From Mycobacterium adipatum (lineage in GTDB: Bacteria > Actinomycetota > Actinomycetes > Mycobacteriales > Mycobacteriaceae), in the NCBI RefSeq assembly GCF_001644575.1, contig NZ_CP015596.1, positions 2,666,001-2,730,000 of the forward strand: a stretch of DNA of 64,000 nucleotides, in the 5' to 3' direction. Of the stretch, positions 18,219 to 35,958 are shown in pieces. Within the stretch, counting starts at the first letter, position 1. The number at the start of each line of letters is the position of its first letter. Under the pieces are notes generated by a model that was given only the letters and a program-made list of their open reading frames with translations, was not told the DNA's origin and did not search any database. The translations under genes and the position numbers were made by a program.

Positions 18219-19157
18219 CCCGCCTCTCGCCGAAACAGCATTCCAGACGGCGTGTACTCGAACATTGGCTTCCTGGATGCATTTTCGGGGATGCGGGTGT
18301 GCATCTGGCCGTCCCATCCGCGTTCCCGTAACGCGCGGCACACGCGGTTGACGATCTCGGCGTCGTGGGTCTTCCCTGATGACCTGGATGACGTTCCAGT
18401 TCATCTCGGCCAGCTGCGGCAACACCCAGTGGTCCTTGACGTACTGCGGACGGCTCGTCTGATGCTGTTCACCGTCGTACTCGATGGCCACCTTGTAGTC
18501 CTCCCAGCCCATATCGAGGGTGCGTAGGTGTCGTCCGCACCGGTCGACCACGGCGATCTGCGTCGTCGGCCACGGAAGGCCGGCGTCGATGAACATCAGA
18601 CGCAGCCGTGTCTCCTGGGGTGAGGCCGCGCCGCCGTCGACCAGCGGCAGGATCGACCTGAGCCGAGCCACCCCGCGTGCCCCGGCATAGCGAGCCGTCA
18701 GCGCCATCACCTCGTCGGGATCGAACGGGGCCGCACGCATCAACGCGTCAAGGCGTGCCAGTGCCGGACCTCGGCGTTGATAGCGACCCAGATCGAAGGC
18801 CGCTCGTGCCGGGGTGGCTACCGGTAAGCCCATGACGATCGTCGTCTCGTCCACGGCCAGCCGTTCGTTGCGCACCACGATGCCGCACGGCGCCCGGGTG
18901 ACGGTCGTGCGGATCAGCTCGATCGGGGTGGCCGCGTCGACCCACTCCGCGCCGTGCAGGGCCGACGCGGCGACACCGGTCACCACGCCGTCGCGGTGTG
19001 TCCACAGCCACGCCGCGACGGTGGTGTCCCGCAGCGTCAGGATGCGGTTCTTCGGCGCATGGATGTTCGCGAAGACGGGCCGGTGATGATGCTGGAGCTC
19101 GTGCCTGGTGACGGTGCCGTCCCGCAGCGCTTCACTGCCGATGATGATGTCGCTCAT
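18215..19157 (-). pseudogene. AbiEi-like / DUF559 nuclease-fold protein, frameshifted
   Basis: From ATG 19157 the frame encodes a protein with an N-terminal region like AbiEi-type antitoxins and a C-terminal DUF559 (Vsr-like, PD-(D/E)XK) domain: SPQETRLRLMF, LRTLDMGWEDYKVAIEYDGE, LAEMNWNVIQVIRE. After IRE the natural continuation DAEIVNRVCRALRERGWDG, ending in [10 protein letters not shown] and a stop at 18215, is in another frame. Removing one base of the GGG at 18367-18369 would restore about 313 residues (IREDHDAEIV). As written, the frame runs on antisense through mbtH and mbtG. It could be a true null mutation or a homopolymer sequencing error. The stop-side repeat at 18226-18263 encodes its last residues. 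Confidence 0.75.
18226..18263. repeat. 38-bp dispersed repeat, copy A
   Basis: Inverted relative to copy B at 19217-19254, with 31 of 38 positions matching by eye. The core ccgaaacagcattcc is shared with copy C. It lies within the last codons of the frameshifted AbiEi/DUF559 gene. Confidence 0.8.
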
Positions 19158-33058: not shown

Positions 33059-34453
33059 GTGGCTCCGTCTTCCTCGATCATTGAGACCGTTGCAAACCTG
33101 GCGAAACGCCGTGGCCTCGTCTACCAATCGGGCGAGATCTACGGCGGTACGAAGTCCGCCTGGGATTACGGGCCACTCGGGGTGGAGCTCAAGGAGAACA
33201 TCAAGAAGCAGTGGTGGCGCTCGGTGGTCACCGGCCGCGACGACGTCGTCGGGCTGGACAGCGCGATCATCCTGCCCCGGCAGGTGTGGGTGGCCTCCGG
33301 GCACGTCGCGGTGTTCAACGATCCGCTGGTGGAATGCCTGAACTGTCACAAGCGGCACCGCCAGGACCACCTGCAGGAGGCGTACGCGGCGAAGAAGAAT
33401 CTCGATGACCCGGATTCGGTGTCGATGACCGAGATCGTCTGCCCCGACTGCGGCACCAAGGGCCAGTGGACCGAACCGCGTGACTTCAACATGATGCTCA
33501 AGACCTACCTCGGGCCGATCGAGTCCGAGGAGGGGCTGCACTACCTGCGACCCGAGACCGCACAGGGCATCTTCGTCAACTTCGCCAACGTGGTGACCAC
33601 GTCCCGCAAGAAGCCGCCGTTCGGTATCGGCCAGATCGGCAAGAGCTTCCGCAACGAGATCACCCCGGGCAACTTCATCTTCCGCACCCGCGAGTTCGAG
33701 CAGATGGAGATGGAGTTCTTCGTCGAGCCGTCCACCGCGCCCGAGTGGCACAAGTACTGGATCGACACCCGGCTGCAGTGGTACATCGACCTCGGAATCG
33801 ACCCGGAGAATCTGCGCCTCTACGAGCATCCGCTGGAGAAGCTGTCGCACTACAGCGCGGGCACCACCGATATCGAATACAAATTCGGCTTCGCCGGCAG
33901 CCCGTGGGGTGAGCTGGAGGGTATCGCCAACCGCACCGACCACGACCTGTCCAGCCACGCAAAGGCTTCCGGGGCGGATCTGACCTACTATGACCAGGCT
34001 TCGGACACCCGCTACACGCCGTACGTCATCGAGCCGGCGGCCGGCCTGACCCGGTCGCTGATGGCCTTCCTGGTGGACGCCTATACCGAGGACGAGGCCC
34101 CCAACGCCAAGGGCGGAGTGGACAAGCGCACCGTGCTCAAGCTCGACCCGCGGCTGTCGCCGGTCAAGGCCGCGGTGCTGCCGCTCTCGCGGCACGCCGA
34201 CTTGTCGCCCAAGGCAAAGGATCTCGCCGCCGAGCTGCGCCAGAGCTGGAACGTGGAGTTCGACGATGCCGGCGCGATCGGGCGGCGCTACCGTCGCCAG
34301 GACGAGATCGGCACACCGTTCTGTGTCACGCTGGACTTCGATTCGCTCGACGACCACGCGGTCACCATTCGCGAGCGCGACAGCATGAGCCAGGAGCGGG
34401 TGGCGATCTCGGAGGTCTCGAACTATCTCGCCGTGCGCCTGAAGGGCTGCTAA
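33059..34453 (+). CDS. glyS: Glycyl-tRNA synthetase
   Basis: 464-residue class II, single-chain (alpha2-type) glycyl-tRNA synthetase. Visible: [15 protein letters not shown], a zinc site CLNC...CPDC, motif 2 ([20 protein letters not shown]) with EQMEMEFF, motif 3 near [12 protein letters not shown], and the anticodon-binding domain starting about residue 350 (KAAVLPLSR). Start GTG 33059. It ends nine bases before the left 62-bp inverted repeat, which may serve as its terminator. Confidence 0.96.
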
Positions 34454-34461
34454 CCCCCGTT

Positions 34462-34523
34462 CCCGCGAGCGTGCGTGTCTGTTGGTGGACACGCCGCTGC
34501 CGGACCCGAGTTCGCGCACGCTC
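34462..34523. repeat. 62-bp inverted repeat, left copy
   Basis: About 53 of 62 bases match the reverse complement of 35502-35563. The copy is itself palindromic: gcgagcgtgcg (34465-34475) pairs perfectly with cgcacgctcgc (34515-34525). It lies between glyS and the AbiEi/DUF559 gene, 92 bp before that start codon. Confidence 0.88.
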
Positions 34524-34615
34524 GCCGCGGTCGCGTCATTAACAATCGCCGAACTATCCACAGATTCGTTGGCGGGAGTCGACCGGGCCGCGCTGCCCCA
34601 CCGACGATCGGCAGT

Positions 34616-35503
34616 ATGTCTGACGACGTCGCCGCCTTGCTCGCACGCCAGGGTGGAGTAGCCGCTACCGCCCAACTCCTGAACGTCTTGAGTCGCAGCC
34701 GGCTCGATACCCTGATCAGGGCGGGTGAGCTCATCAAGGTGTGGCCCGGTGTCTACGCCGGTGACGAGCCGGACCGTCTCACCCGTCTTCGCGGATTGGA
34801 CCTTCGTGCGGGTGGGACCGTCGCCATCTGCCTCGGAACTGCGGCTGCGGCATATGGTTTCGACACCGAAGGCGTGATCGACCTGCACGTGCTCAATCCC
34901 GACGGCTGCCAGCTCCGGGCATCTGACGGGTTGATCATCCACCGCCGCGATGGTGCACCACTAGCGATGGTCGACGGTCGCCCGGCCTCGACCGCCGCGT
35001 GGACGGCGGTCGAGGTGGCCCGGCTTCTGCGTCGTCCGCGTGCTCTGGCAACTTTGGATGCGGCACTGCGGACGGGGAGTTGTGAGCGCCGGCAGCTCCT
35101 TGCGGCGGTGACCGAACAACACGGTCGACGTGGCATTGTCCATGTGCGGGAACTGGTTCCGTATGCAATGGCTGGCGCGGAATCGCCGATGGAGAGCGAA
35201 GCGCGGCTGGTGATGCTCGATGGGCAGCTGCCGGCCCCCGAACTCCAGTACGAGATCGTCGACTACTCCGGACGGAGGTGGCGACTCGATTTTGCATGGC
35301 CGCTGTGCAAATTGGCCGTCGAGTACGACGGGTTCGACTGGCACAGCGACCCTGTCAGCTTCGCTCGGGACCGGCAGAAGCGCGCCGCCCTGCAGGAGAT
35401 GGGGTGGACCGTGTTGTCGATCGTGTCCGACGATGTCCGGCGCCGGCCGGCTGATTTCCTGCGCCGCGTGCGTTGTGAGCTCTCGCGCTCCCCGGCCGCG
35501 TGA
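34616..35503 (+). CDS. AbiEi-like / DUF559 nuclease-fold protein
   Basis: 295 residues. The N-terminus (VAALLARQGGVAATAQLLN, then LIRAGELIKVWPGVYAGDEP) matches the winged helix of AbiEi-type antitoxins. The C-terminus is a DUF559/Vsr-like PD-(D/E)XK fold: MESEARLVML, WRLDFAWP, KLAVEYDGFDWH, then DRQKRAALQEMGWTVLSIV. Candidate catalytic residues are the Asp in RLDFAWP and the Glu in AVEYDG. No toxin-like partner is adjacent. ATG 34616 was preferred because upstream in-frame codons run into the inverted repeat. It is a paralog in architecture of the frameshifted gene at 18215-19157. Function unknown; nuclease or DNA-binding is inference. Confidence 0.8.
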   Translation: MSDDVAALLARQGGVAATAQLLNVLSRSRLDTLIRAGELIKVWPGVYAGDEPDRLTRLRGLDLRAGGTVAICLGTAAAAYGFDTEGVIDLHVLNPDGCQLRASDGLIIHRRDGAPLAMVDGRPASTAAWTAVEVARLLRRPRALATLDAALRTGSCERRQLLAAVTEQHGRRGIVHVRELVPYAMAGAESPMESEARLVMLDGQLPAPELQYEIVDYSGRRWRLDFAWPLCKLAVEYDGFDWHSDPVSFARDRQKRAALQEMGWTVLSIVSDDVRRRPADFLRRVRCELSRSPAA

Positions 35504-35563
35504 GCGTGCGCGATGTCGGAACCGGACGCGGCGTGTCGGCCAGCAGACACGCACGCTCGCGGG
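35502..35563. repeat. 62-bp inverted repeat, right copy
   Basis: Partner of 34462-34523 in opposite orientation. It begins inside the stop codon of the AbiEi/DUF559 gene and has its own arms gagcgtgcg (35502-35510) and cgcacgctc (35550-35558). A transcript reading out of the gene would fold here. Confidence 0.88.
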
Positions 35564-35582
35564 TGAGGCGGCTCTCGTGACA

Positions 35583-35600
35583 TATTCCTTGACGGGAATA
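35583..35600. promoter_or_regulatory. Palindromic operator upstream of arsR-type gene
   Basis: TATTCC-TTGACG-GGAATA, six-base perfect arms. The spacer contains a TTGACG -35-like hexamer, with TATGGT 18 bp downstream as a possible -10 placing the start of transcription at the ATG at 35626. An ArsR repressor bound here would block RNA polymerase. Confidence 0.55.
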
Positions 35601-35625
35601 CGTCATGGCGCTTATGGTGACCAGC

Positions 35626-35958
35626 ATGCAGGCGGCGGTGTTCGTGGCACTGGGGGAGCCGAGTCGCCTGCGGATCGTCGATCTGCTCAGGGCCGGGCCG
35701 CTTCCGGTCGGCGCGATCGCCGAGGCGCTCGGAATACGGCAGCCGCAGGTGTCCAAACATCTTCGGGTGCTTGGTGATTCCGGGATCGTGAGCAGTCAGG
35801 CCCAGGCCCGGCAGCGGATCTACCAGCTCGAAGCCGCACCCTTCGAGGACATCGGCCAATGGGTCGCGTCCTTCGAGAGGCTGTGGGATGACCGGCTGGA
35901 TTCCCTTGGTGACTTCCTCAATTCGATCACACACGAGAAGAAAGACGACGGCCCATGA
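35626..35958 (+). CDS. ArsR-family transcriptional regulator
   Basis: About 110 residues, winged helix with LGEPSRLRIVDLLRAGPLPVG and ALGIRQPQVSKHLRVL. It lacks the metal-binding Cys pairs of true ArsR and belongs to the subgroup paired with AHSA1/SRPBCC proteins. ATG 35626 suits a leaderless mRNA; in-frame ATGs also lie at 35605 and 35614. It overlaps the next gene by ATGA. It likely autoregulates through the palindrome at 35583-35600. Confidence 0.82.
   Translation: MQAAVFVALGEPSRLRIVDLLRAGPLPVGAIAEALGIRQPQVSKHLRVLGDSGIVSSQAQARQRIYQLEAAPFEDIGQWVASFERLWDDRLDSLGDFLNSITHEKKDDGP

Follow-up and report, generated by a model that had tools for sequence, protein, structure and literature searches.

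A mycobacterial AbiEi-Vsr-like nuclease gene flanked by palindromic elements and its likeness to REPIN/RAYT systems

In Mycobacterium adipatum, a gene for an unusual nuclease lies between two inverted copies of a short palindromic element. We estimate a probability of about two in three that the gene and its two flanking elements are the "master" locus of a REPIN/RAYT-like gene-repeat system that employs an unrelated nuclease, with the enzyme acting on the elements. A REP-type system is favoured because solo copies of the element and empty sites exist, and because the palindromes vary with the gene lineage. An initial annotation of this DNA had read the locus as a unit of transposon-like or REP type, with the repeats as a possible target of its protein; our analysis supports such a unit, the action of the protein excepted.

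The nuclease gene and its flanking elements

The gene occupies positions 34616..35503 (+ strand) of the window, i.e., of the whole 64,000-nucleotide stretch that was analysed. It is of AbiEi/DUF559 (MTES_1575) type and intact, with 295 codons and a TGA stop at 35501-35503. Upstream lies a palindromic element of type R1 (34462..34525, + strand), its conserved arm pointing outward to the glyS stop codon (34451-34453), from which it is separated by a short stretch assigned to neither strand (34454..34461). A second R1 element (35502..35563, - strand), also with the conserved arm outward, overlaps the stop codon of the nuclease gene; since the TGA is at 35501-35503, the downstream arm starts within it. 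The inverted arms (34462-34523 and 35502-35563) are 62 nt long, 85% complementary and 978 nt apart, bearing out the annotation's by-eye reading of 62-bp inverted copies alike at 53 of 62 positions, and the flanks that carry them have a local-alignment score of 40.5. The upstream arm (ending at 34523) is 92 bp from the ATG, so that the layout given initially, with one copy 92 bp before the start and the other beginning in the stop codon, is correct in both coordinates; the leader following the complete element (ending at 34525) measures 90 bp and contains an ATCCACA motif (34556..34562, + strand). Each copy is palindromic, as had also been proposed, with outer arms of 11 bp in the upstream copy and 9 bp in the downstream copy. 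Like the annotation, we see no target duplication at the unit by eye, and no filled and empty sites form a pair close enough to yield base-exact junctions.

Downstream of the unit follow an ArsR-family gene (matching Pfam HTH_5, arsR family), an AHSA1/SRPBCC-type gene (matching AHSA1) and a convergent TPM-domain gene. At locus L049, short tandem pieces like CCCTTTGGCGCGAGC are found between glyS and the unit, before the upstream element, and similar but shorter pieces precede the upstream element at L050, L052, L057 and L065. Those at L049 look as if the outer end of the upstream element had been copied repeatedly.

The only Pfam matches of the 295-aa protein at E<=1 are MTES_1575, DUF559 and AbiEi_4, and the best matches of its model are AbiEi and Vsr/I-Bth0305I. 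On the basis of the AbiEi, Vsr, I-Bth0305I and 3hrl matches, with lower-ranking ones left aside, the protein is predicted to combine an AbiEi-like N-terminal half with a Vsr/I-Bth0305I-like C-terminal nuclease half. The nuclease half has the conserved catalytic residues E193, D225, E236, D238 and H243, and both the fold and the catalytic residues of the Vsr-like (EDxHD) nuclease superfamily are present, in agreement with the DNA-binding N-terminus and Vsr/PD-(D/E)XK-like C-terminus read initially. A HUH/Y1 (IS200/IS605-type) transposase domain is absent from the Pfam matches at E<=1 and from the best model matches. The M. adipatum genome contains 14 matches to the protein; annotated names among such matches include hypothetical protein, very-short-patch-repair endonuclease and antitoxin. 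An assignment as an anti-phage system was rejected, the PADLOC matches being weak and partial (AbiEi, homing endonuclease, PDC-S37).

Pairing of genes and palindromes across loci and genomes

Flanking repeats were scored by aligning the upstream with the downstream flanks of each gene, a measure that is blind to the R1 sequence. A score of at least 18 was obtained for 66 of 78 scored DUF559 loci, compared to 1 of 238 random placements drawn within the same sequences (median 11.5, 99th percentile 15.5, maximum 21.0). These 66 comprise 58 of the 65 homologous loci of other genomes (30/36 named-relative loci and 28/29 further genus loci) and 8 of the 13 M. adipatum loci, namely the nuclease gene itself and 7 of 12 paralogs. 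Homologous loci go back to a common ancestor and cannot be counted as independent, and L110 and L051 even represent one gene; the stronger test comes from the M. adipatum paralogs, which are distant (28-54% identical). The flanking pairs are similarly placed among loci, the downstream one of the two copies lying at the stop codon or close by, and at 30 of the 36 named-relative loci an R1 copy on the + strand precedes the gene and one on the - strand follows it, both at E<=1e-5. Named-relative loci below 18 are L063, where the contig stops 75 bp behind the stop codon, the broken or partial genes L073, L076, L078 and L079, and L075, a partial match from Antrihabitans; L121 is the one among the further genus loci. 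In M. adipatum, L016 and L019 have a weak flank score (17.5), and a flanking pair is absent by score at L013, L020, L021 and L022, of which L021 had no tblastn match in the main scoring and flanks scoring 10.5 in a separate comparison. The DUF559 paralog L013 (35% identical) is located in the window itself, at 18354-18896 (- strand), and R1 is weakly matched on either side of the L022 match, with both strands represented (E 0.12 and 0.007; C1:4955918-4956377).

The leader motif recurs as well. The pattern [AG]TCC[AC]CA is found within 120 bp before the start at 57 of 78 loci, distant paralogs included, versus 46 of 3000 random windows, and at 27 of the 78 the stretch from the upstream palindrome to the start codon contains ATCCACA/GTCCACA twice. 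We take the motif to resemble a DnaA box; that it is linked to replication is a guess.

Each of the 7 pair-bearing paralogs of M. adipatum has a distinct palindrome of its own. That of L010 is a near-perfect palindrome of 62 bp (GCGAGCAGACACAAAG...), L015 has a different sequence (GGCGAAACTCGCGTACC...), and further palindromes are present as direct rather than inverted copies at L011, L012, L014, L017 and L018. Three non-R1 palindromes, those of L010, L015 and L132, were searched across genomes. The L010 palindrome is found at 12 places in M. adipatum (2 flanking and 10 solo), with matches in 12 of 22 genomes. In M. adipatum, the L015 palindrome flanks its gene at 2 places and recurs at 6 full and 2 partial ones; a search of 10 other genomes that covered the palindrome alone gave no match. 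L132 is an ortholog with a diverged palindrome, which we read as a switch of specificity; this variant occupies 6 places in G039, of which 2 are flanking and 4 solo, and is absent from 11 other genomes.

In the L010 family (21 copies), the stem retains 95.8% of its pairs. Its 24 paired changes, counted as cells, compare to 7.7 in shuffles, with 0 of 500 shuffles as high; both-side-changed cells and the covariation score exceed all 500, and the weaker measures were reached by 38 (both-side-changed pairs) and 103 (pair types) of the 500. For R1, paired changes were found in 0 of 19 pairs. When folded as DNA and compared to shuffles, the L010 and L015 palindromes have z values of -14.6 and -7.7, and the upstream and downstream R1 copies values of -2.05 and -0.67, so that the fold of the downstream copy is not better than that of shuffled sequence.

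R1 was represented by a covariance model of the 61-bp element, and copies were cross-checked by DNA search and by patterns. The initial annotation had called for a genome-wide search for repeats lacking the gene, and had named hundreds of copies with no link to DUF559 genes as the outcome that would speak against it. That outcome is not seen: in the 6.05-Mb M. adipatum genome, three search methods concur on 8 good copies, 2 at the gene and 6 solo. Each copy is asymmetric, in that one arm, the outward one (CCGCGAGCGTGCGTGTC.G), is invariant among all 8 and the other half is variable. The rep-PCR repeats of M. intracellulare were considered and rejected as a match; in the available text of PMC10117815, the printed primers fall in genes and are by eye unlike R1.

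In the genus, 44 of 59 genomes have at least one R1 match at E<=1e-5, with a maximum of 54 per genome. Co-occurrence with the gene was assessed over the 59 genomes, a close gene being defined by E<=1e-95, a cut-off chosen after the gene matches had been seen. Among the 29 genomes with a close gene, 27 have at least 2 R1 elements and 20 have at least 10 (median 14), versus 15 and 4 of the 30 genomes without one (median 1.5); for at least 10 elements, Fisher's p is 1.6e-5 when relatedness is ignored. G039 and G046 possess a close gene and zero R1 elements, and their genes carry other palindromes; for G039, the different palindrome of its ortholog accounts for the missing R1 match. R1 elements in genomes that lack a close gene speak against a strict gene-element link. 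G017 (15 elements) and G035 (14) have no gene match even at E<=1e-55, and their elements could either be relics or be served by another paralog.

Sites behind stop codons, empty sites and descent

All six solo R1 copies of M. adipatum adjoin a gene 3' end according to ORF calling and inspection by eye, L005 overlapping it. Together with the 39 best-scoring places listed for G013 and G032 they form a set of 45 elements, 36 of which are near a predicted gene 3' end (8 of these between two convergent 3' ends) and 2 of which are inside genes. For 1647 random placements, the proportions are approximately 4% near a 3' end and approximately 79% inside genes. The conserved arm points to the 3' end in 24 of 28 elements with a one-sided 3' end, and the 13 nt before it are 71% pyrimidine, versus 46% behind the other arm. 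Elements placed and oriented in this way might be transcription terminators or mRNA-stabilising hairpins, spread for the benefit of the host and with the nuclease gene as one user of many. We consider this unlikely, since it leaves unexplained why distant lineages have their own palindromes on both sides of the gene and why dispersal of a variant is confined to genomes that have its gene; moreover, there is no consistent T-run behind the element (only L007 has one among the six solos), and no Rfam match was found at E<=1 in 34400-35700. A terminator or hairpin role may be a secondary use of the elements.

Inverted R1 doublets, 22-146 bp apart, are present in 4 of 19 G032 stretches; no gene remains are recognisable between them, and they resemble REPINs. 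Inverted R1 pairs also surround non-DUF559 genes at L285:506-1420, L286:511-1023 and L287:522-1411, the gene at L286 being an HNH gene and those at L285 and L287 having been read by eye only. With three unrelated genes enclosed in this way, bracketing as such is therefore not unique to the nuclease gene.

Several sites are filled in one genome and closed in another. The gap between the convergent genes rbpA and ppm1 measures 89 bp in M. adipatum, where it holds an R1 element, and 6 bp in G061, which has the most similar RbpA (97%). It is at most 16 bp in 14 of 18 same-genus relatives, and R1 is absent from it at E<=0.01 in all 18. In G006 (L199), the gap contains by eye a palindrome of another family, of the GAGCAG...CTGCTC kind, which suggests that this junction is an insertion spot common to different families. 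The initial annotation had also named fixation of the unit at its locus in all relatives as contrary evidence. The unit is not fixed: none of 30 genomes picked for lacking a match at E<=1e-95 has an R1 unit behind glyS, where the sequence covered in two of them was limited to 113 and 165 bp. In 13 of these 30, the TPM gene of the window follows glyS, and in 9 its end is within approximately 30 bp of the glyS stop (by eye), while G048 has a solo L010-type palindrome exactly in the glyS-TPM junction. The SRPBCC-TPM junction, a 12-bp gap in the window, contains an element in L045, L047 and L073 and other sequence in L044 and L046. Thus, an element can be present where another genome has a closed site, and one spot can be occupied by different families; parsimony favours gain over loss as the origin of the site differences.

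Site turnover also bears on the idea that the palindromes are operators, by which the AbiEi-like protein would regulate its own gene and a small regulon. AbiEi antitoxins autoregulate, and an AbiEi-like N-terminal half and a palindrome upstream of the gene would be in keeping with such a role. However, the solo sites are empty in relatives, most R1 elements are near 3' ends and some between convergent ones, the second copy is at the stop codon of the gene itself, and a regulator would need no conserved nuclease site. We regard an operator function as improbable.

At 30 of the 36 named-relative loci the nuclease gene is found behind glyS, and it therefore mostly descends in place; RAYTs likewise show mostly vertical descent. 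In 8 of these 30 (L051, L055, L056, L059, L066, L070, L072 and L077) the orientation of the unit relative to glyS is reversed, and the six full-length reversed cases require at least 2 changes on the protein tree; either an inversion between the repeats or a renewed insertion at this spot would account for them. The L077 unit is internally deleted and has kept both ends. This deletion, the inverted ends with the conserved arm outward and the inverted doublets without a gene would all suit a small DNA transposon of the ordinary kind, bounded by terminal inverted repeats, of which the solos would be MITE-like deletion derivatives. We nevertheless give a transposon little chance: no target duplication is seen, descent beside glyS is mostly in place, the direct-repeat versions of five paralogs are unexpected for a plain terminal-inverted-repeat transposon, and among the 72,556 plasmid and 50,697 phage records no place covers at least 80% of the protein. 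Carriage by plasmids or phages was rejected, with only partial matches (<=39% of the query, <60% identity) in 5 plasmid and 6 phage records.

Known systems and a proposed mechanism

REP/REPIN-RAYT systems, including REPtrons and TIRtrons, have been described (PMC3733652, PMC3116915, PMC8266576). As far as the available text of these papers goes, the shared features are copies of a short palindrome family on either side of a gene, further copies dispersed outside genes, doublets in inverted orientation, flanking copies that in some cases overlap the gene 3' end, and repeats that differ between gene lineages. According to the available text of PMC3733652, a GTAG tag at one repeat end is a REP/RAYT feature. 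No such tag was found at the R1 ends in the 8 M. adipatum copies; the elements here are approximately 61 bp, and an AbiEi-like half plus a Vsr-like nuclease replaces the HUH/Y1 transposase. Because these two defining features, the Y1 domain and the GTAG tag, fail, the system is not a REP/RAYT member.

Other known systems differ as well. Compared to I-Bth0305I (PDB 3r3p) and Vsr (1cw0, 1vsr), the protein here has an additional AbiEi-like half and is tied to dispersed palindromes. With regard to homing endonucleases, the unit is intergenic and no intron is found around the gene (Rfam, E<=1, 34400-35700). In AbiE type IV toxin-antitoxin systems the AbiEi antitoxin (6y8q) is paired with an AbiEii toxin, whereas the neighbour here is an ArsR-family regulator; an AbiEii gene is absent from the operon, the two genes downstream being of the HTH_5 arsR family and AHSA1. 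MITEs are short, non-coding dispersed elements that share their ends with a full unit, which likens them to the elements here. They differ in that we find one palindrome per end, no visible target duplication and no known transposase. Searches of the open-access literature, in which few preprints are represented, yielded no paper that describes the nuclease-palindrome pairing in its title or in the opening lines of its abstract.

We return to the preferred reading of a REPIN/RAYT-like master locus. The anatomy, the gene-palindrome pairing and the site turnover are observed, and from these we infer binding, cutting and movement as follows. The AbiEi-like N-terminal half would recognise the palindrome of its own locus, which might adopt a hairpin or cruciform form, and the Vsr/I-Bth0305I-like C-terminal half would nick or cut at the palindrome or the target. 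Host replication or repair would then copy the element into sites just behind stop codons, spots where an inserted element may do little harm. Bracketing would hold the gene beside its substrate and could allow the unit to invert, to decay and perhaps to move.

What emerges looks like a gene-and-repeat system that is similar to selfish DNA and apparently undescribed. To our knowledge, bacterial gene-linked palindromic repeats have all been tied to one kind of enzyme, the RAYT Y1 transposase; in mycobacteria, a non-homologous nuclease would occupy its place. The palindromes vary between paralogs, and also between some orthologs, which makes the gene-palindrome pairs a natural set for reading the DNA recognition of the protein. 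For DUF559 or "endonuclease domain-containing" proteins, of which the M. adipatum genome has many, the finding points to a possible role. In a broader view, to which we assign even odds, mycobacteria would harbour a class of selfish or domesticated gene-repeat systems, several per genome, in each of which an AbiEi-Vsr-like nuclease has a cognate palindrome that the enzyme copies or inserts, in a defined orientation, directly behind stop codons. This class would be an independent, PD-(D/E)XK-type invention of the REPIN/RAYT way of life, with natural specificity switches that expose the recognition code.
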